Of a DNA stretch of 64,000 nucleotides, positions 43,110 through 52,455 are shown in pieces. A program made the translations under genes and the position numbers. The notes beneath the pieces were generated by a model, which was not told the DNA's origin, did no database searches, and worked only from the letters and a program-made list of their open reading frames with translations. Every line of letters begins with the position of its first letter. Positions within the stretch are counted from its first letter, which is position 1. Source of the stretch: an uncultured Lachnospiraceae bacterium (GTDB taxonomy: Bacteria; Bacillota; Clostridia; Lachnospirales; Lachnospiraceae). The stretch spans positions 1-64,000 of the forward strand of contig CASWVG010000007.1 of NCBI GenBank assembly GCA_949472775.1, given 5' to 3'.

Positions 43110-46100
43110 CTAATAGAGCTTTTCTACATAGACATCTGCAGACACAGGGGCACCCAAATTATAGTAACCCACTGCCAGGTATACCGTTTCGCCCACTGAC
43201 AGATTGTCAATCTCATGAGAAAAATTAACATCATCAGCGTCATCATTATACCCATACCCATAGTTAAATGGACTGCTCCAACTATTCATTTTACTACTGT
43301 CAATCCCCGTTTGTCTGTCAACATAGTTTTTACCTGTCTGGGTAAAGAACCATGCTTTGGGATCCCCGTAATTATTTGCCGAATAGAATCGGTACGTACC
43401 TGCTTCCGATGCTGTAAATCTCACCCATTTAAACTGATTCTCAGTCACAGATACATAAGCAGGCGACCCGACAGAAAGGGACGCTGTTCCCGGCGCCGGT
43501 TTCGCATCAGATTCGCCAGATCCACCGTTGTCTCCAACCACACTAACATAAGTACCAACAAGTGCATCCATCAGTTTGTCGTAACCCACTGCGAAGTATA
43601 CCGTCTCGCCTGCCGCCAGCTTAATCTTTTTGCCATTCTCGTTCATTCTGGCATACTCGCTGCGTTTGCTGTCCAGTACATCTCTGTCCGCGCTATTGCC
43701 AATTCGGTCGATCACAGCCCTCTCCGTATCATAGAACAGCCATGCATAAGTTTTGTCGTTATCTGAACTAAAGGTATATACATCCGTTATACTCGCTGTA
43801 AAGCTGAACCACCTGTACTGTCCCTTCTGCACGTTCACCGATCCGTTAGTGCTGACACTTGTCACCGATGCCGTTTTTTCTGACGTATTCGAGCCGGGCA
43901 TGGACGGCTGGCCGAGATACTCATTATCCCCATGGTACCAGTCCGCATTTGCCACCGGTTCTACCGTTACCTCCCATCTGGCAAATACCGCTTTTGTTAT
44001 CTTGGAGCGCACTTCTATAAATGTCCTGCCTGCTCCTACCGCCTTGAAGGATGCGGTATATGTGCCCGCATTCGCCTTCACAGTCGCTACTTTCTTATTC
44101 GTAACCGTCCATGTCAGCGTGTCCGTCTTGGCATACTTTGCTCCCACATTATACTCGCTCGCATCCAGTCCCAGTGTATAGACATTGCCCGAGTACAAGG
44201 CGTTCTCCGTAATATCGTCGTCCCCATTATTTGGAGCTGTAATGGTTACACCACCCTCATAGTACGGATCAGCTTTTATACTGTCATCCAACCTCCGATA
44301 GCTTGCCGGGAGCAGTGTCGTCTGGATTTTGCCCTTTGCCTCTTTGGAGGCAAGGTTTCCATACAGTGCTGTTATTGTCACATCGTACTTTGATTTCTGC
44401 GTCAGATTTCCGACCCTGTAGGTGTACAGTTTCGTCTTCGCATTATAGATATTGCTGTTTCTCGGCACATACTTACTCTGCAGTATATGACCTCTCGCAT
44501 CTGTCACCTGGATCCGGAATGCCTCCGCATAGCCTGTATAGTCAAACGTGAGATCCGCAAACTGGTCGGTGACAAATGTTGTCTGGATCTTCTTAACAGG
44601 ATCAAGGCCTGTAACAGAAAGCTTCACCGCCGCCGTCTTATCCGTGCCGACAACGCTGTCCTTCAGCGTAAGATTCATCGGCTGTTTGCCTTCCTTAACC
44701 GCCTTGACCATAACGCCGTCTAATTCGAAGCGTTCATCCGCCTCAAACACATTCTTCAGCTCTTCATCCACCACGATGGATTTCTCAAAATCGCCGATCA
44801 GAACTTTTCTGCCTTCGGAGTAGGTCACCATATCGTACAGAGACATGCTCTGTCCCACCTGCATTTTGACCGTCTTACCTTTGATACTGTCCGCCTTCGC
44901 GGTGATATTCACAAACGCTACCGCGTGCACACCCAGTGTGGTGGGATCAATCGCAACGACAGCTACCTTTCCTACCCCATTCAGTGTCAGCTTCTCATTC
45001 TTGATGGTGGCAAGGGGCGTGTTATAAAGATAAATACTACCCCCATTATAACCAACTGACACTCCCGTAAAACCGTCTCCAGTTTTTACATTGCGGGCTT
45101 CGCCTACACAATAAATGAGTTTCGACGTCATATAATTTTTCTGGTCATCCTTGGAAAGCGGTAAGTCTTTCCAGATACGGTCTGCCCAATCTGCCGCACC
45201 CGACTCTACATTCTCGCGGAACTTACCCTCGAGAGCCATCGTCAGGCTTCCCTTGGATAATGCCACCGTATAGCAGTTGCTATCTTTGTCATACTCGGCA
45301 TACTCAGCATCCGTTATTCTCTCCGGATCAAACCGCAGACCTATCAGCTGTGATTTCGTCGTCTTCGCAGTTTTCACAGCGCCCGCAAAGGATTCGCTGA
45401 CCTTACAGCGCACCTCGTGGTCACAATACTCCAGACCACGGATTCCGCTCACGTTGCGCACATATACCGTGTAGGTCTCCTCTGTTGACAGACCACTGTC
45501 CTCCAAAGTTATGGTATACAACTTGGTCTTTGGGTTATAAATGTCATTACCATAATCATCGGTGTCATCATCGGAAACATAAACCGGAGCGATTTCAAAG
45601 ATACCTTTCCACACCCCATTCTTCATGGTGCCGATCTGTTCTTCAAAATCTTGCGGTTTTTTCTTGTCCTTCATTACATAAATCTCGCTGCGATAACCAT
45701 CTGTATAGCCGTCAACCGGTCCGGACCAGGACACTGTCAGACTATGATCTCTCGCTGTCAGAGTCTTAATCTTCGGTGCGGTCACATCATTGATCGTAAC
45801 CTTAAGCTTCGCTTCTCTGGCCGGTTCCGTGGGTATCCATGTCTGCTTTCCGTCCTCGTCAATCTTCAGTCTGGAGGAATAGACGTAAACGGTCGCACTG
45901 CCCTTCTTCAAAGCTGTCACATATCCATCCTCAGTAACGCAGAGGAAGTCTTTGCCAGCCTCATCTACCTTATAGCTCAGATGAATGACATCGCTTTCCT
46001 GAGATTTGGAAAGTTTCACATCCAGCCTCTGGGTAGTTCCTACTACCATCTTGTTCAACGCCCCGTTGAACGCAAGAGACTTAGGAGCCACCGTCTCCAT

Positions 46101-49100
46101 TAAATTATCACCGAATATCGCGTTTGCAAAATCCAGAACAAAATGCTCTGTGAAGCCTTCCTCCCAGCGGATATCAAATTCCGGCTTCTCCGCCTCGTTC
46201 GCGTCAAACGCAACCCGGATGGAATTGTCGTCAGCCGCATCAAGAATAAGACCTTTTGCGCTCTTCACACTGCTTTCATACATCGGATTGATGTCTGAAA
46301 GAGCTTCATACTCCGCAGGTATGGCAATATCAATTGCAATATAGTTGCCCTCCCTGTGTTTGTCGTCAAGACTGCTCAGATTATAAACATAAGGAATTGC
46401 CTGCAACGTCGTAACTGTGTGCGTGTAGGCGCCATCCTTGGACACAACGACATCGTTGATCTTTATGGGTGCAGTATTGTTTCTGTCAGGGCTTGTCGCC
46501 GTCACTGTGGATTTACTGCGCACAGTCGTAAAAGTCTTGCTCTCACCCGCTTTTAATGTATAGTTCCTTGCGTAACCGGCAGTCAGATCTGCACTGTCAA
46601 ATTTTACAGTGTAGGTCTCCGCCCCTTTCAATTTTTCGCCGTATGTAAGTTCTCTTCCTTTTGCGTCAAATACATCGAAGGAAATCGTACCGTCTACAGC
46701 CTGGTAACCGTACGTAAAGCTGCCGTCTTCCTCATACCTTCTGTAGGTAAACGCATCTTTATCCTTCTCCACAGGCGTCTCAAACACTGCCGCGTTGACG
46801 TCGTAAGCATACTGTACCCGGGTACCTCCCGCAACCTCATCCTTGATGGAAGGGGTTACCGTAAGTTCCGCCTGCTTGATTTCATAGACAATATCTGTTT
46901 CATATACAAAGTTCGAGTAGACAACGCCGTCTTCTCCCTCAAACGTATCCGGATTACTGATGAATCCCTGATACGTCTCATCTCCGCCGAAGCCAAGATA
47001 ATACTTATATGTGCCGGCATCAACCGGCTTTTCCACGTATTCCGGCGTCTTTCCTGTGATTTCTACCCAGAATTGATCCATCTTCGGCAAAACCGTATTC
47101 GTCACAACGGTCTCTCCTGCCTTAATTGTAATCAGACCGTTATTCACAGCTTCCGTAACATCAAATGCCTCGCCGTTATACACCTTAGACTTGTCTGCCA
47201 GTTTAGTCAGATCCGTGGTCACCGTCAGCGCAGTAGCGCCCATCTTGGTCAGGGTGATATCCTTTGTCTCATTGAAATAAGTAGTCTTTGTGGATGTTGT
47301 CCCGTCCTCTGCTTTTTCCTCTACCTCTTCGTAGTCGGCATAATTCGAATCATAATAAGACAGCACAGCCGCCAGTCTTAACTGGTCGCCCTCCGCAAAA
47401 CTGTAGCCGTTACCTGTCTGATTCCACTCATTCTTTTCCGCGTCCTTCTTCTCCACATGCCAGGTAATCCTATAGTCTTCCTCTTCAACCCACCCGGCCA
47501 GAATCTCATTCATCGCGTCGGCGTCCTCGTCTTCCGTGACCACCTTGATCTCATGGGAAACATCTGTCATGGACAGGTATTTCTGTGAGGTAACACCCGT
47601 ATATGCACTGTAGTCACCCGAAGGAACAACCTTGATCTTTCTCGGTTTGATTTCGTAAATTACCTCTTTTTGAGCCGAAGCATTCGCATGGGTGCTGTCA
47701 GAATAGCTCACCAACAGTCTGTATGTGCCTGCATCTTTCGGCTTAGCAGCAGTTCCCAGGTAACGCCAGGCAGGTTTCTCGATGTATATCGGATTCCCGT
47801 CCGCATCCGTCTTAATGGAACCGTCAGCGTTTGTATCGGGTTCAGACGTCACTCCGTCCTGCTCATACCAGGTATATGTCAGCTGACTGGCAGTTCCCTC
47901 CGCAACACTCTTGCCGTCCACTGTCACTTTTGCTTTCTTATAGTCAGCCCTGTTTTCGTACAAAGGTTTCCCATTGTACTCTCTGTTGATGGGTGTGATC
48001 TCGCTCACATCAATAGCCGCAGCCGCAGCCACATTTATGATGAGTGCTTCCTTGCTGCTAATTACATGTTCCTCATCCACCATATAGTTAAGGCTGTTGG
48101 AATTTGCAAGATTTACATGATAGCTATATCCATCACTGTCCGTACCATCGCCATAGGCATTAATCGGACAAAAAAATCCCTCTGAAACAGAGCCGTCTGC
48201 ATTATAAGCCGCCTTATAGCCGGTAAACATGACACGGTACGTCTTACCGCTTTCCAAGCGGTCTCCATCATTCAGCCAATCGCTTAAATCTTCTGTCGTC
48301 CCATCCTCATTTGTCGTCTTTTCTTCGTTCCATATTCCAAAAACCGGCTGATAGGACTGCGTTTTCGATGAATTGGCATAAGACGTCCCCCAGAAGGTAT
48401 CTCTGTCAAACTCATCAGTATCGTCAAAACGCGCTCCCAGGCCATTGGCAGCCTTTTCATCATATCTGTAAACCTGATAATCCACCTGATCAAGCACTTC
48501 TTTAGCCGTCGTCCCAGCGCTGAAAGTGGTGCCGCCTTCCGGTATCGGCACAAGTTCCAGTATAGCCGGTTCAATCGTTACGTCCATGATCGATTTATCA
48601 CTCTCATCATAAAGGCCTTCCTCACCTTCATAATGCAGTGCGATACCGTATTCACCCGCATTCACAGGCGCCTGCTCCAGTTCAACCCAGCCCGATCCAA
48701 GTCTGTATTCACACCAGACTTTCTTCAGTTCACCCGTAAGTTCCCGATAGGTGTCATTACCCTGATCGTCTTTGCCAACTACCTCACTGCTAAAAATTTT
48801 AGCCTCATAATCAGTGCCGTCCACAGGTTCCTGCGCACTGCCGGTATAGGCGTATGTAAAGGGCTCATACTCACCTTCTATCGGATTTCCCTCCTCATCC
48901 TTTACAGGATGGGCCGCCTTATAAGCCGCTGTGTAATCCCACTCTACCCAGGTAGAAATCAAATCGGACATTTCGATGTCCATAACCTGATCCGCGGGCA
49001 TCGCATAGTTATTTTTCTCTGTCTCACCCGCCTTATCGGTAAACTTAAAAGACAGGGTGATCGCATAGTCACCGCCCTTTTTCAGCACGTCCTCGTTACC

Positions 49101-50024
49101 GAGCACATTACCGGTAATCGCCTCTTTCACGCCTGCGGACGTGACAGCCAGTTTCGACGCCGCATTCGCTTCCGCATCAGTCGCAGAGACAGAAGCGAAC
49201 GTAGTGCCGTCCTTATCCACTACACTCACACCGACCTTAATGTCCTTGACTTTGGTCCCCGGTGTAACGGATATGGAATCCTCTGCAACAGAGAGCACCT
49301 GTGCGGTGATTTTAAAATTAATTCTTTTCTCTACTGCGTCATTTCGGTCACTCGCCGGTATCGTCACGAGAAGCTGATACTCGCCTGCGTCAACCGGGCT
49401 TACTTCCTCGGTCGTGTCTTTCTTCACCCACTTTTTAGTGAGGCCGGCAACGTCTGCCTCATTCACAGACTCACCATTTTTCTTGATCACAACCTGTGCG
49501 TCCCAAAACTGTTCACTGCCGTCATATTCTGCAGTCGTGTCGCCAACATTGCTGTCATCTACTTCATAGACATCCTTTTCCGGCGCCGCACCATCTGCGT
49601 TTATGATCTCGTCTTCAACCGCCGAACCGGCATCTTCCTCTTCTGTCGTCTGATCCGTTTCTGTACCGGCTGTATTGTCAGCCGCCGCATCATCCACCGT
49701 AACGTCCGGATCATCGGTTCGCGTATCGTCCGGCACCTCTGTATCCGGCGCTTCCGTGGAATCATTATCCACTGAATCGTCCACCGCATCATCCGCCGTC
49801 GCATTTGCGTCGGGCGCCTGAACGTCTGCGCCTTCATCTGCCTGGCTCTCAGAAGCCTCACCGTCAGCCGGTAAGGAATCCACAGCCGTACTCTGCTCCT
49901 CTGACACATCGTCAGCCGAAGGAGCGGCGTAAGCCGTTGTAGGCAGCATGGTCACAGCCATGGCAATTGCTAAAGCCAGCGCTAAAATTCTTTTAGCCTG
50001 GAATAGCTTTTTCAGCTCTCTCAT
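43110..50024 (-). CDS. Giant secreted multi-domain surface protein (2304 aa)
   Basis: A signal peptide (1-33, ending TAYA-A) is followed by an acidic Asp/Thr-rich region (35-165). At least four MBG/YDG-like repeats come next, each with a Y-x-G opening (YDGSEQF, YTGSAQE, YNGKPLY, YNGEAFD) and a closing (D/N)AG(E/T)Y strand. A Big2-like module (GALNKMVVGTTQRLDVKLSKSQ) and fibronectin-III-like segments (IKTLTARDHSLTVSWSGPVDGYTDGYRSEI) follow. The C-terminus has two related beta modules containing RWFSFTAS...YFAVGY and KWVRFTAS...YLAVGY. No LPxTG sorting motif is present, so anchoring is non-covalent or the protein is released. AGGAGG precedes the ATG. An adhesin or glycan-binding role is inferred; no catalytic motif was recognised. 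Confidence 0.88.
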   Translation of the reverse strand: MRELKKLFQAKRILALALAIAMAVTMLPTTAYAAPSADDVSEEQSTAVDSLPADGEASESQADEGADVQAPDANATADDAVDDSVDNDSTEAPDTEVPDDTRTDDPDVTVDDAAADNTAGTETDQTTEEEDAGSAVEDEIINADGAAPEKDVYEVDDSNVGDTTAEYDGSEQFWDAQVVIKKNGESVNEADVAGLTKKWVKKDTTEEVSPVDAGEYQLLVTIPASDRNDAVEKRINFKITAQVLSVAEDSISVTPGTKVKDIKVGVSVVDKDGTTFASVSATDAEANAASKLAVTSAGVKEAITGNVLGNEDVLKKGGDYAITLSFKFTDKAGETEKNNYAMPADQVMDIEMSDLISTWVEWDYTAAYKAAHPVKDEEGNPIEGEYEPFTYAYTGSAQEPVDGTDYEAKIFSSEVVGKDDQGNDTYRELTGELKKVWCEYRLGSGWVELEQAPVNAGEYGIALHYEGEEGLYDESDKSIMDVTIEPAILELVPIPEGGTTFSAGTTAKEVLDQVDYQVYRYDEKAANGLGARFDDTDEFDRDTFWGTSYANSSKTQSYQPVFGIWNEEKTTNEDGTTEDLSDWLNDGDRLESGKTYRVMFTGYKAAYNADGSVSEGFFCPINAYGDGTDSDGYSYHVNLANSNSLNYMVDEEHVISSKEALIINVAAAAAIDVSEITPINREYNGKPLYENRADYKKAKVTVDGKSVAEGTASQLTYTWYEQDGVTSEPDTNADGSIKTDADGNPIYIEKPAWRYLGTAAKPKDAGTYRLLVSYSDSTHANASAQKEVIYEIKPRKIKVVPSGDYSAYTGVTSQKYLSMTDVSHEIKVVTEDEDADAMNEILAGWVEEEDYRITWHVEKKDAEKNEWNQTGNGYSFAEGDQLRLAAVLSYYDSNYADYEEVEEKAEDGTTSTKTTYFNETKDITLTKMGATALTVTTDLTKLADKSKVYNGEAFDVTEAVNNGLITIKAGETVVTNTVLPKMDQFWVEITGKTPEYVEKPVDAGTYKYYLGFGGDETYQGFISNPDTFEGEDGVVYSNFVYETDIVYEIKQAELTVTPSIKDEVAGGTRVQYAYDVNAAVFETPVEKDKDAFTYRRYEEDGSFTYGYQAVDGTISFDVFDAKGRELTYGEKLKGAETYTVKFDSADLTAGYARNYTLKAGESKTFTTVRSKSTVTATSPDRNNTAPIKINDVVVSKDGAYTHTVTTLQAIPYVYNLSSLDDKHREGNYIAIDIAIPAEYEALSDINPMYESSVKSAKGLILDAADDNSIRVAFDANEAEKPEFDIRWEEGFTEHFVLDFANAIFGDNLMETVAPKSLAFNGALNKMVVGTTQRLDVKLSKSQESDVIHLSYKVDEAGKDFLCVTEDGYVTALKKGSATVYVYSSRLKIDEDGKQTWIPTEPAREAKLKVTINDVTAPKIKTLTARDHSLTVSWSGPVDGYTDGYRSEIYVMKDKKKPQDFEEQIGTMKNGVWKGIFEIAPVYVSDDDTDDYGNDIYNPKTKLYTITLEDSGLSTEETYTVYVRNVSGIRGLEYCDHEVRCKVSESFAGAVKTAKTTKSQLIGLRFDPERITDAEYAEYDKDSNCYTVALSKGSLTMALEGKFRENVESGAADWADRIWKDLPLSKDDQKNYMTSKLIYCVGEARNVKTGDGFTGVSVGYNGGSIYLYNTPLATIKNEKLTLNGVGKVAVVAIDPTTLGVHAVAFVNITAKADSIKGKTVKMQVGQSMSLYDMVTYSEGRKVLIGDFEKSIVVDEELKNVFEADERFELDGVMVKAVKEGKQPMNLTLKDSVVGTDKTAAVKLSVTGLDPVKKIQTTFVTDQFADLTFDYTGYAEAFRIQVTDARGHILQSKYVPRNSNIYNAKTKLYTYRVGNLTQKSKYDVTITALYGNLASKEAKGKIQTTLLPASYRRLDDSIKADPYYEGGVTITAPNNGDDDITENALYSGNVYTLGLDASEYNVGAKYAKTDTLTWTVTNKKVATVKANAGTYTASFKAVGAGRTFIEVRSKITKAVFARWEVTVEPVANADWYHGDNEYLGQPSMPGSNTSEKTASVTSVSTNGSVNVQKGQYRWFSFTASITDVYTFSSDNDKTYAWLFYDTERAVIDRIGNSADRDVLDSKRSEYARMNENGKKIKLAAGETVYFAVGYDKLMDALVGTYVSVVGDNGGSGESDAKPAPGTASLSVGSPAYVSVTENQFKWVRFTASEAGTYRFYSANNYGDPKAWFFTQTGKNYVDRQTGIDSSKMNSWSSPFNYGYGYNDDADDVNFSHEIDNLSVGETVYLAVGYYNLGAPVSADVYVEKLY

Positions 50025-50104
50025 CCTTCTCTTCCTCCTGTTTTGTCAAATTTTCTTCCCTGATCCAGAAGAACTCCTCTGCATCCACCTAAAGTTTCTA
50101 TTAA

Positions 50105-50135
50105 ATCATACACCCCCCCCCCCTAAAATTGTCAA
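50105..50135 (-). promoter_or_regulatory. Promoter with 11-base poly-G spacer upstream of the surface-protein gene
   Basis: On the minus strand TTGACA (50130-50135) is followed by ATTTTA, eleven G (50113-50123), TG and then TATGAT (50105-50110). The spacer is 19 bases; nine G would give the optimal 17. The tract lies about 89 bases before the ATG. This layout matches slipped-strand phase-variable promoters such as Neisseria porA. Confidence 0.65.
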
Positions 50136-50195
50136 GGATAGCTTCCCTCTTGAATATCCCCCCGGAAACTGGTTCCATGTCTACCGCTGCCAGGA

Positions 50196-50243
50196 CATAG
50201 AAAGACCGCCGGGAATTGCATCACCTCCCGACGGTCTTTTTTT
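50196..50243. terminator. Bidirectional hairpin between the importer operon and the surface-protein gene
   Basis: AAAGACCG-CCGGGA and TCCCG-ACGGTCTTT form a strong stem. TTTTTTTAT follows on the plus strand and TCTTTCTATG on the minus strand. It ends the YjfF-like permease transcript. Confidence 0.75.
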
Positions 50244-50300
50244 ATATGATATAAAATTATTTTGCTGCCTTCTCACTGGCATATTCTGGTATATTAACTT

Positions 50301-51368
50301 TTAGTTCGCTGCATTTCTCTTCTTTCTCACAGACATAACCACGCTCTGAACCACGAGGAACAGGCAGAGCATAACTGCTTTTGTGATACCGGTCCACCAT
50401 GCTTCATCAAATCCGACGGAGGATACGATATTCTGAATCGTGTTCAGAGAGAGCACGCCGAAGAATGTACCAAGCACATTACCTACACCGCCTGTCAGCA
50501 TGGTGCCGCCGATAATGGAGGATGCGATCGCGTCCATCTCCGCGCCCGACGCATGAGAGGGGGAACCGGAACCTACATGCAGGAAGTAGACGAAACCGCC
50601 GATACCTGCCAGAAGCCCACAGATCAAGTGGGAGAGGAACTTCGTTCTCTTCACGTTGATACCGAGCATCAATGCGCTCTGCTTGTTGCCGCCGACTGCG
50701 TAGAAGTTACGTCCCAGCTTCATCCAACGGAGCAATACGAACATTACGATCACTACCAGAAGCGCTACCAGCACACCGATCTCCACGTAAGCGGGCACAT
50801 ACTTACCCAGCTTATTCACAGAACCAAGACCAGGCACATTCACACGAGTCATCTTCAATGCTACAAACGCCTCGTTCTCCACGTTGAAAGGTGAGGTGTT
50901 AACAATCGTTGTCATACCTCTCGCAAAGAACATACCCGCCAGTGTAACAATGAAAGGCTGAATGTCCAGATACGCAACAAGGGCACCCTGAAATGCACCG
51001 AATGCCAGACCGATCAGAATCGCGATAACAGCTGCCATAAATACGTTGCCGCCTTTGTAGTCAAGATAAACTGCGCAGCACATGCTCACAAGAGCCGTCA
51101 CGCCGCCCACGGAAATATCGATTCCGCCAGTAATCATAACAAGGCTCATGCCACAGGCAAGAATGATCAGCGCCGCATTGGCATTTAAAATATTAAAGAA
51201 AGTCTGCGGCTTTAAAAATCCCGACCGAAGAAAAACCATTGCACCTATGTACAGCAGGAAAAATACGGCAATTGTAATCGTGAGGAGCAGGTTGGTGTCG
51301 GTCATGCCCGCCAGCTTCGCGCCGAGACCCTTGCCCGTAGATGCATTACTCTTATCTGTCTTTGCCAT
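50301..51368 (-). CDS. Sugar ABC transporter permease, YjfF-like
   Basis: This 355-residue protein has about nine hydrophobic helices and the ribose-type permease signature GGIDISVGGVTALVSM, AYLDIQPFIVTLAGMFFARGM and GSGSPSHASGAEMDAIASSIIGGTMLTGGVGNVLG. It pairs with the adjacent permease as a heterodimer, as in the E. coli YtfT/YjfF galactofuranose importer. GGAGGTGGCTTGAG precedes the ATG, one base after the previous stop. Confidence 0.92.
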   Translation of the reverse strand: MAKTDKSNASTGKGLGAKLAGMTDTNLLLTITIAVFFLLYIGAMVFLRSGFLKPQTFFNILNANAALIILACGMSLVMITGGIDISVGGVTALVSMCCAVYLDYKGGNVFMAAVIAILIGLAFGAFQGALVAYLDIQPFIVTLAGMFFARGMTTIVNTSPFNVENEAFVALKMTRVNVPGLGSVNKLGKYVPAYVEIGVLVALLVVIVMFVLLRWMKLGRNFYAVGGNKQSALMLGINVKRTKFLSHLICGLLAGIGGFVYFLHVGSGSPSHASGAEMDAIASSIIGGTMLTGGVGNVLGTFFGVLSLNTIQNIVSSVGFDEAWWTGITKAVMLCLFLVVQSVVMSVRKKRNAAN

Positions 51369-51369
51369 C

Positions 51370-52455
51370 TCAAGCCACCTCCTTGCTCAGTTTCATTTTT
51401 TGTGTAATCTTATTTAAGTACTCTCTCACAGTAGGTGCGCTGACAACTACCAGCAGGATAACCACTACCGCCTTGTAAGCGGGAAGCGCTGTTGAGGAAA
51501 CTCCAAATTTGTAAAGCGTCGTCGTCAAGCACTGGATTACAAACGCGCCGATAATGGAAGACGCCATATTGAACTTACCGCCGGAAAGCGCGTTACCGCC
51601 GAGAGCAACGGCAAGGATCGCATCCATCTCAATATCCTTCGCGATAACGGAGTAGTTGATGGAAGACACACGGCTTACCTTAATCAATCCCGCAACCGCC
51701 ACACACAGGCCGAGAATCACGAAAGCCAGCACTTTGATCATCTCGGGGTTCAGACCGTTTAACTTAGACGAACTCTGGTTGATACCAACCGCCTGCGTGT
51801 ACAGCCGCAGATTTGTCACTTTCAGCACAATGCCGATCACAACCATGCATGCAATCGCGATAAAGCAAGGCGTCGGGATCGGTATCCCCGGAATAAACCC
51901 GCCGAAATAAGCAAACTTGGGATCGCTGATAACGGGGAGCTCATTGTTGTTAATCCATGCCGCAATGGAGCGTCCCGCCGTATACAGAATCAGCGTCGCG
52001 ATCATGGGCTGGATCTTGAAATAAGCCACCAGCACGCCGTTGAATGCGCCAAAGAGCATTGCAACCACACAAGCCACCAGAAACGCTACGATGATGGGAG
52101 CCTGCAGGGTTTCGGGACGGGCATTTCCGCCGCAAAGCACCCGCAAAACCACGCTGCCCGCAATGGCGATCGCAGCGCCCACGCTGATATCCTGTCCGCC
52201 GGAAGCCGCTGTTACAAGCGTCATGCCGATCGCCAGAATCGCCAGCTCAGAACCGTTATTGATAATGTCGATGATAAAGCCGGACAGCACCGGATTCCCT
52301 GCGCTGTTGTAACCCAATGTAATTCTAAAGAAAGAAGGATCTGCAATCAGGTTGAAAACCGCCAGCAGCAAAAGCGCCGCAACCGGGATAAAACACTGAT
52401 TTCTGACAAGATTCTTTAAAAAACCTGCCCCAGATGTTTTTTCACTGTTTGCCAT
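51370..52455 (-). CDS. Sugar ABC transporter permease, YtfT-like
   Basis: This 361-residue permease has the same family landmarks: AASGGQDISVGAAIAIAG, VAYFKIQPMIATLILYTAGRSIAAWINN and INYSVIAKDIEMDAILAVALGGNALSGGKF. It follows the ATPase gene with no gap and uses GGAGGTGACA in the end of that gene. The two-permease arrangement distinguishes this importer from the MmsAB system at 34-38 kb. Confidence 0.92.
   Translation of the reverse strand: MANSEKTSGAGFLKNLVRNQCFIPVAALLLLAVFNLIADPSFFRITLGYNSAGNPVLSGFIIDIINNGSELAILAIGMTLVTAASGGQDISVGAAIAIAGSVVLRVLCGGNARPETLQAPIIVAFLVACVVAMLFGAFNGVLVAYFKIQPMIATLILYTAGRSIAAWINNNELPVISDPKFAYFGGFIPGIPIPTPCFIAIACMVVIGIVLKVTNLRLYTQAVGINQSSSKLNGLNPEMIKVLAFVILGLCVAVAGLIKVSRVSSINYSVIAKDIEMDAILAVALGGNALSGGKFNMASSIIGAFVIQCLTTTLYKFGVSSTALPAYKAVVVILLVVVSAPTVREYLNKITQKMKLSKEVA

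Follow-up and report, generated by a model that had tools for sequence, protein, structure and literature searches.

The window, a stretch of 64,000 nucleotides from an uncultured Lachnospiraceae bacterium (genome G000; a draft of 119 contigs, 84.6% complete), carries on its minus strand a gene for a 2304-residue protein, preceded by a promoter, a terminator-like hairpin and an ABC-transporter permease gene (Table 1). Read from 50135 to 50105, the promoter is TTGACA - ATTTTA GGGGGGGGGGG TG - TATGAT, and its boxes are separated by exactly 19 bases, 11 of them consecutive G residues, just as the first-pass annotation had described. The same annotation had called this the only good promoter ahead of the giant gene, and this is borne out by a loose promoter list for 50300-50025, in which it scores 11/12 against 9/12 for each of the next three minus-strand sites. 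In a standard scan of 49000-51500 with 16-18 spacing, the nearest minus-strand site lay already inside the upstream permease gene. Transcription probably starts a few bases downstream of the -10 box, within 50025..50104. The hairpin has 14-base arms and a fold z of about -5.7 on both strands.

Table 1. Features of the promoter region and the giant gene, by position in the window.
Feature	Position	Strand	Basis
ABC-transporter permease gene, upstream; unit boundary, outside the proposed switch	50301..51368	-	Pfam BPD_transp_2
Two-way terminator-like hairpin, parting the upstream operon from the poly-G promoter	50201..50239		Fold and inverted-repeat search
-35 box TTGACA	50130..50135	-	Read directly; kept in the G044 orthologue
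Spacer ATTTTA-G11-TG, 19 bases	50111..50129	-	Sequence
Uninterrupted run of 11 G, proposed site of slippage	50113..50123	-	Sequence; orthologue has 13 G
-10 box TATGAT	50105..50110	-	Sequence; kept in G044
Stretch from -10 to start codon, 80 bases, includes 5' leader	50025..50104	-	Sequence
Ribosome-binding site AGGAGGA, upstream of ATG	50033..50039	-	Sequence
Giant secreted protein gene, 2304 aa, proposed phase-variable target	43110..50024	-	ORF; weak below-cut-off fn3 match only
Signal-peptide-like N-terminus MRELKKLFQAKRILALALAIAMAVTMLPTTAYAA, boundary approximate	49923..50024	-	By eye and hydrophobicity script

The tract is the sole run of eight or more C or G residues in the window. A run of 11 is mildly unusual on its own, being expected 0.10 times by chance and present in 7 of 100 shuffles; the unusual part is its position within an 11/12 promoter match. 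The shuffles, the 119-contig draft and the artefactual look of some G runs at contig ends would fit a chance run or a sequencing artefact, but we find this scarcely credible, since the promoter has unique flanks and is internal to a contig of 95 kb, has an orthologue in a second genome (G044), and belongs to a layout with 92 matches in the genus against 4 in a control. The case for a real promoter is made from sequence, by the 11/12 match, by consensus bases across the promoter class at positions that the search left free, and by the boxes kept in the orthologue.

A search for inverted repeats of at least 10 bases in 49850-50450 returned the terminator hairpin alone, and promoter inversion was rejected, as inverted repeats flanking the promoter were absent from this interval. 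The window promoter had no match in viral_contigs, and its surroundings had none in plasmids.

The giant protein and tract length among its relatives

The 2304-residue product begins with a signal-peptide-like N-terminus (such starts were judged by eye and with a hydrophobicity script) and is likely to be secreted; its surface location, which the first-pass annotation had taken as given, is putative. A protein search found relatives in 18 of the 77 genus genomes, own genome included. One of these, in G044, is an orthologue at 90% identity, and the other matching stretches are 25-50% identical. By a hand count in which two members (L407, L417) were unreadable and those cut by contig ends were left out, 23 of 30 readable 5' flanks in this family carry a pure tract of G9-11 (G13 in G044) followed by a -10-like box. 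Some family flanks have a TTGCT or TTGAT -35 box, which a TTGAC pattern misses. The remaining flanks comprise one with G7, one with an interrupted tract (GGGGGAGGG) and five without a G run of at least 7, at least two of which (L409, L414) have ordinary 17-base promoters, read by eye. The member with the interrupted promoter tract (L418) is possibly a locked version.

The orthologous promoter in G044 reads TTGACAATTTTAA-G13-TGTATGAT, with a spacer of 22 compared to 19 in the window. From the -35 box to the start codon, substitutions separate the two at 5 of the 103 positions compared (the 103 include the mark that replaces the tract), and their indels are confined to the tract and one A beside it. 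In 11 disjoint pairs whose flanks are at least 80% identical, all of them comparisons between species, tract length was unequal in five, against 0.99 expected from the indel rate of the flanks (P = 0.0035). One of the five unequal pairs lies outside the promoter set (L052 position 4391 and L302, G10 vs G9); this tract is upstream of a gene that looks prepilin peptidase-like by eye and has no clear promoter boxes. Tract length was equal in the other six pairs, including the three closest (95.5-96.0% flank identity), which counts against a switch. The differences in length are consistent with slippage and support it without proving it, because assembly error can create false differences. Assembled homopolymer lengths may be wrong; in Bifidobacterium breve, real homopolymer lengths differed from the annotated sequence (PMC9187656).

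Poly-G promoters in the genus: spacing and targets

The pattern TTGACN{5,14}G7N{0,3}TANNNT was searched in 77 genus genomes with the reversed pattern as control, and gave 92 matches (89 distinct sites by hand count) in 38 of the 77, while the control gave 4. Of 397 family genomes sampled, 49 had a match to a G8 version, with a single match for its reversed control. The layout is hence more common than the first-pass annotation allowed when it considered homopolymer slippage unusual for gut Clostridia. A poly-C version, with a slightly narrower gap range and a run one base longer, stayed at control level (3 matches vs 3), and a single interruption in the middle of the tract, the one interruption position searched, gave 5 matches against 2 in the control. 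Four of the 89 sites were left out (one each in G039, G073, G074 and G075); the table made from the others has 87 rows, and 84 promoters after de-duplication. At least nine G residues are present in 71 of these 84 pure-tract promoters, and the tract adjoins the -10 box directly in 71 of 84, the search having permitted just 0-3 bases there. Across 73 de-duplicated promoters with spacers of 16-20, the positions left free by the search carry the consensus A at the sixth base of the -35 box (64/73) and at the fourth (57/73) and fifth (63/73) bases of the -10 box.

A long, N-terminally hydrophobic ORF lies downstream of 37 of 64 poly-G promoters in the genus and of 3 of 27 distinct ordinary promoters in the own genome (Fisher P = 3e-5, an indicative value, as the sets come from different genomes and related promoters are non-independent); the hydrophobicity score does not separate signal peptides from membrane proteins. 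The 64 are what was left of the 84 after dropping 10 with a spacer outside 15-21 (including the window's orthologue), 2 with fewer than 8 G and 8 with a short downstream sequence. The ordinary promoters came from the 30 of 38 matches that had loci, of which 27 were distinct and assessable and 3 were too short. An ORF of at least 1000 aa with a hydrophobic N-terminus follows 30 of the 84 promoters, and some of the others are cut by contig or locus ends. Many poly-G promoters sit before transporters, lipoproteins or small membrane proteins, and this was counted against a switch. On these counts, the poly-G spacer layout is a real promoter class, with a pure tract and with targets skewed towards secreted and membrane proteins.

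The spacer of the 84 genus promoters is most often 19 (40 promoters), followed by 16 (13), 18 (9) and 17 (7); spacers of 12-14 in the set are probably chance alignments. Among TTGACA-N12-20-TATGAT sites in the own genome, the sole ordinary set in which the spacing was allowed to range widely, 17 is commonest (11 of 21). The first-pass annotation had proposed that losing two G residues would restore the optimal spacing; the spacings do not bear this out as stated, since the poly-G set has its peak at 19, which leaves it doubtful that 17 is the ON spacing. Either these promoters work best near 19, or what the assembled genomes capture is mostly a weak state.

The peak at 19 would equally fit a fixed preferred spacing and was counted against a switch. 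The G tract might then serve as a structural spacer, through the shape of poly(dG) (A-like, with a shorter rise) or through contact with a protein or a G-quadruplex, with a length that does not switch in practice. The contrast with the ordinary 17, extended in a collection of named species where 18-19 accounts for 48 of 85 spacers among the matches listed, speaks for such a role, as do the six equal pairs, the tract's abutment on the -10 box within the 0-3 bases permitted, and the control-level count of C in place of G. A one-base interruption would preserve the shape and promote quadruplexes, yet interruptions at the middle position are rare; purity is favoured, and on the one position searched a G-quadruplex or shape-only role is disfavoured accordingly. 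Moreover, indels in the tract exceed those in the flanks, the window's orthologue has a spacer of 22, and tracts also occur inside coding sequences of the same gene class, one of them (contig C39) clearly out of register. We regard a fixed spacer as unlikely.

Tract length showed no compensation by the rest of the spacer in 70 of the 84 promoters (correlation +0.25, permutation P = 0.98), and spacing compensation was rejected on this result; for spacers of 16-21 the correlation was -0.17 (n = 63, no significance test). Failure to show simple compensation would fit a tract length that tunes a transcription factor more than the spacing seen by the polymerase, as has been reported for the tpr promoters of Treponema (PMC7864442). 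Near the window promoter, however, the terminator hairpin is the only inverted repeat of at least 10 bases in 49850-50450. Both core boxes are also near consensus, and near-consensus core boxes lessen the need for an activator. Tuning of a regulator is a very improbable account of the tract.

A mutS match was found in 75 of 77 genus genomes (74 above the cut-off), in all 39 good ones, and as a full match in the own genome. Loss of mutS as a cause was rejected on these matches. With mutS present slippage should be lower, which was counted against a switch.

In the named collection of 84,980 species, at least 117 stretches at no fewer than 80 loci match the pattern, chance matches included. Among the matches listed are Clostridia, Bacilli, Spirochaetes, Saccharibacteria, Coriobacteria, Alphaproteobacteria, Lentisphaerae and others, many of them gut-derived and some free-living. 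Two named isolates with the layout are Mediterraneibacter agrestimuris DSM 111629 (L164) and Massilimicrobiota timonensis An13 (L100). An N-terminally hydrophobic ORF starts within 400 bases in 57 of 78 assessable cases among the matches listed, and the spacer is 19 in 28 of 85 and 18 in 20 of 85. Three loci from Lentisphaerae and Alphaproteobacteria (L143, L107, L146) have two poly-G promoter matches each, and in L143 both promoters precede proteins with similar secreted N-termini. The pattern is also matched by 27 viral-contig stretches (viral_contigs L350-L376).

Further G tracts in the same genome and in G044

A pattern search of the own genome, counted by hand, found 17 tracts of at least G9, of which 5 are in promoters, 5 within ORFs and 7 elsewhere, some of the last at contig ends. 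The five promoter tracts have TTGAC(A/G) on one side and a -10-like box on the other (the window site, C7:85895, C11:17066, C17:31916 and C52:5016); a sixth pattern match, C3:50383, lacks TTGAC and was not counted among them. Each of the five stands before a giant, predicted secreted protein; four of these have 2304, 2554, 1517 and 2111 aa, and the fifth, cut by a contig end, has at least 1649 aa. A domain scan of four of these five products (that of C52 being left out) found differing domains: fn3 (weak), Big_2 (just below the cut-off), BspA-type leucine-rich repeats with DUF285, and RCC1 repeats.

The tracts within ORFs (G9-13) are in the 5' part of signal-peptide-like ORFs on C39, C43, C62, C67 and C68 (L059, L053, L046, L048 and L055, respectively). 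On C43, C67 and C68 the frame stays in register past the tract for as far as the sequence extends. On C39, a frame of no fewer than 2197 codons follows the tract and is out of register at the assembled tract length, and on C62 the frame stops 22 codons past the tract, close to the contig end. These intra-ORF tracts suggest that this genome has a further switch, acting on translation. The genome has several loci of one repeat type, as is required of simple-repeat contingency loci.

Five of the 119 contigs (C62, C67, C72, C82 and C97) have a long C/G run no more than about 260 bases from their start; L407 was noted with them. Some of these contig-start runs look like a sequencing artefact, and others could be assembly breaks at tracts of mixed length. 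G044 has 38 tracts of at least G9. On its contig C28 (L316-L319) five listed tracts, one of 21 G, are near genes that look membrane- and acyltransferase-related by eye, and at C20:48034 (L312) a G10 tract occupies the ribosome-binding-site position a few bases before a possible start codon, the ORF being flagellin-like by eye.

Candidate phase variation and known systems

We consider it probable that this promoter phase-varies by strand slippage in the tract, as Neisseria porA does, here in a member of the Lachnospiraceae. Those marks of a porA-type promoter that DNA can show are present: an uninterrupted homopolymer between the boxes, the promoter boxes themselves, and differences in length between related genomes. 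Of the porA-like phase-variable promoter that had been proposed for this site, the pure G tract in a likely real promoter, the giant, secreted target and the unequal lengths (11 vs 13 G, and 5 of 11 pairs) are supported, and the switch itself is a prediction. The tract would gain or lose G residues during replication, each change shifting the -35 box by one base relative to the -10 box. The shifted boxes would alter binding of RNA polymerase with the housekeeping sigma factor, and transcription of the giant protein would go up, down or off in a heritable, reversible and recombinase-free manner. Five such promoters, together with the intra-ORF tracts in signal-peptide genes, would make many combinations of surface proteins possible per cell population. 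What we infer is slippage in living populations and its reversal, which way and how far expression moves, and a surface location of the product; an advantage may go with these, for instance in adhesion or in evading phages or immunity.

A broader proposal is tentative and, taken whole, rather doubtful. It holds that gut Lachnospiraceae and, from the named scan, other phyla share a recurrent promoter class made of a -35 box, a short stretch, a pure G9-11 tract and a -10 box; that its optimum may be about two bases above normal because poly(dG) compacts the spacer; and that slippage might act as an adjustable control on entire groups of giant surface proteins and provide mismatch-repair-proficient commensals with combinatorial coats.

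If slippage does control these promoters, strains within a large gut commensal group would differ at their surface partly through homopolymers, and tools that seek DNA inversions would miss such differences. The G count at known loci would be a simple genotype for testing immune, phage or diet selection on surface states, and the promoters would offer a test of how a poly-G spacer affects promoter geometry.

The kind of switch is already known, from Neisseria and Treponema, with a gut Gram-positive precedent in B. breve. None of the open-licence PMC papers listed (subscription papers and bioRxiv lie outside them) deals with slippage at poly-G promoters of Clostridia or Lachnospiraceae, and the covered parts of PMC13317340 hold nothing on poly-G in Clostridium. 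The Lachnospiraceae setting, the scale and the giant-protein targets were likewise found described in none of the papers listed. Within the family, the capsule promoters of Mediterraneibacter gnavus are not bimodal (PMC13121745), a mild counter-example. The invertible promoters of Clostridioides difficile and Bacteroides likewise give heritable variation in gut bacteria (PMC11868660), but by recombinase-driven inversion, whereas no inverted repeats flank the promoter described here within 49850-50450.

In Neisseria porA, as in fetA and opc, a homopolymer lies between the -35 and -10 boxes of a promoter for a surface protein, and one-base changes in it alter expression (PMC3639595, PMC3899988, PMC2791445); in N. 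meningitidis, surface expression of porA is about two-fold lower with 10G and 13-fold lower with 9G than with 11G (PMC3639595). The window promoter shares the homopolymer in the -35/-10 spacer, and differs from porA in its Gram-positive gut anaerobe lineage, its giant secreted targets and a modal spacing of 19. Treponema pallidum has poly-G promoters at the putative outer-membrane protein genes tprE, G, J and L, and tprL shows mixtures of 7-11 G in vivo (PMC7864442). Transcription of tprE, G and J occurs at 8 G or fewer, whereas the common length here is 9-11. A gut precedent is B. breve UCC2003, in which G-tract slippage controls a pilus, with enrichment in mice, and for which further G tracts in promoter spacers are mentioned by the authors without data (PMC9187656). 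Like the bacterium studied here, it is a Gram-positive gut commensal, and its G tract governs a surface structure, as is proposed here; unlike here, the tracts studied in it are intragenic and switch the reading frame, and it belongs to a different phylum.
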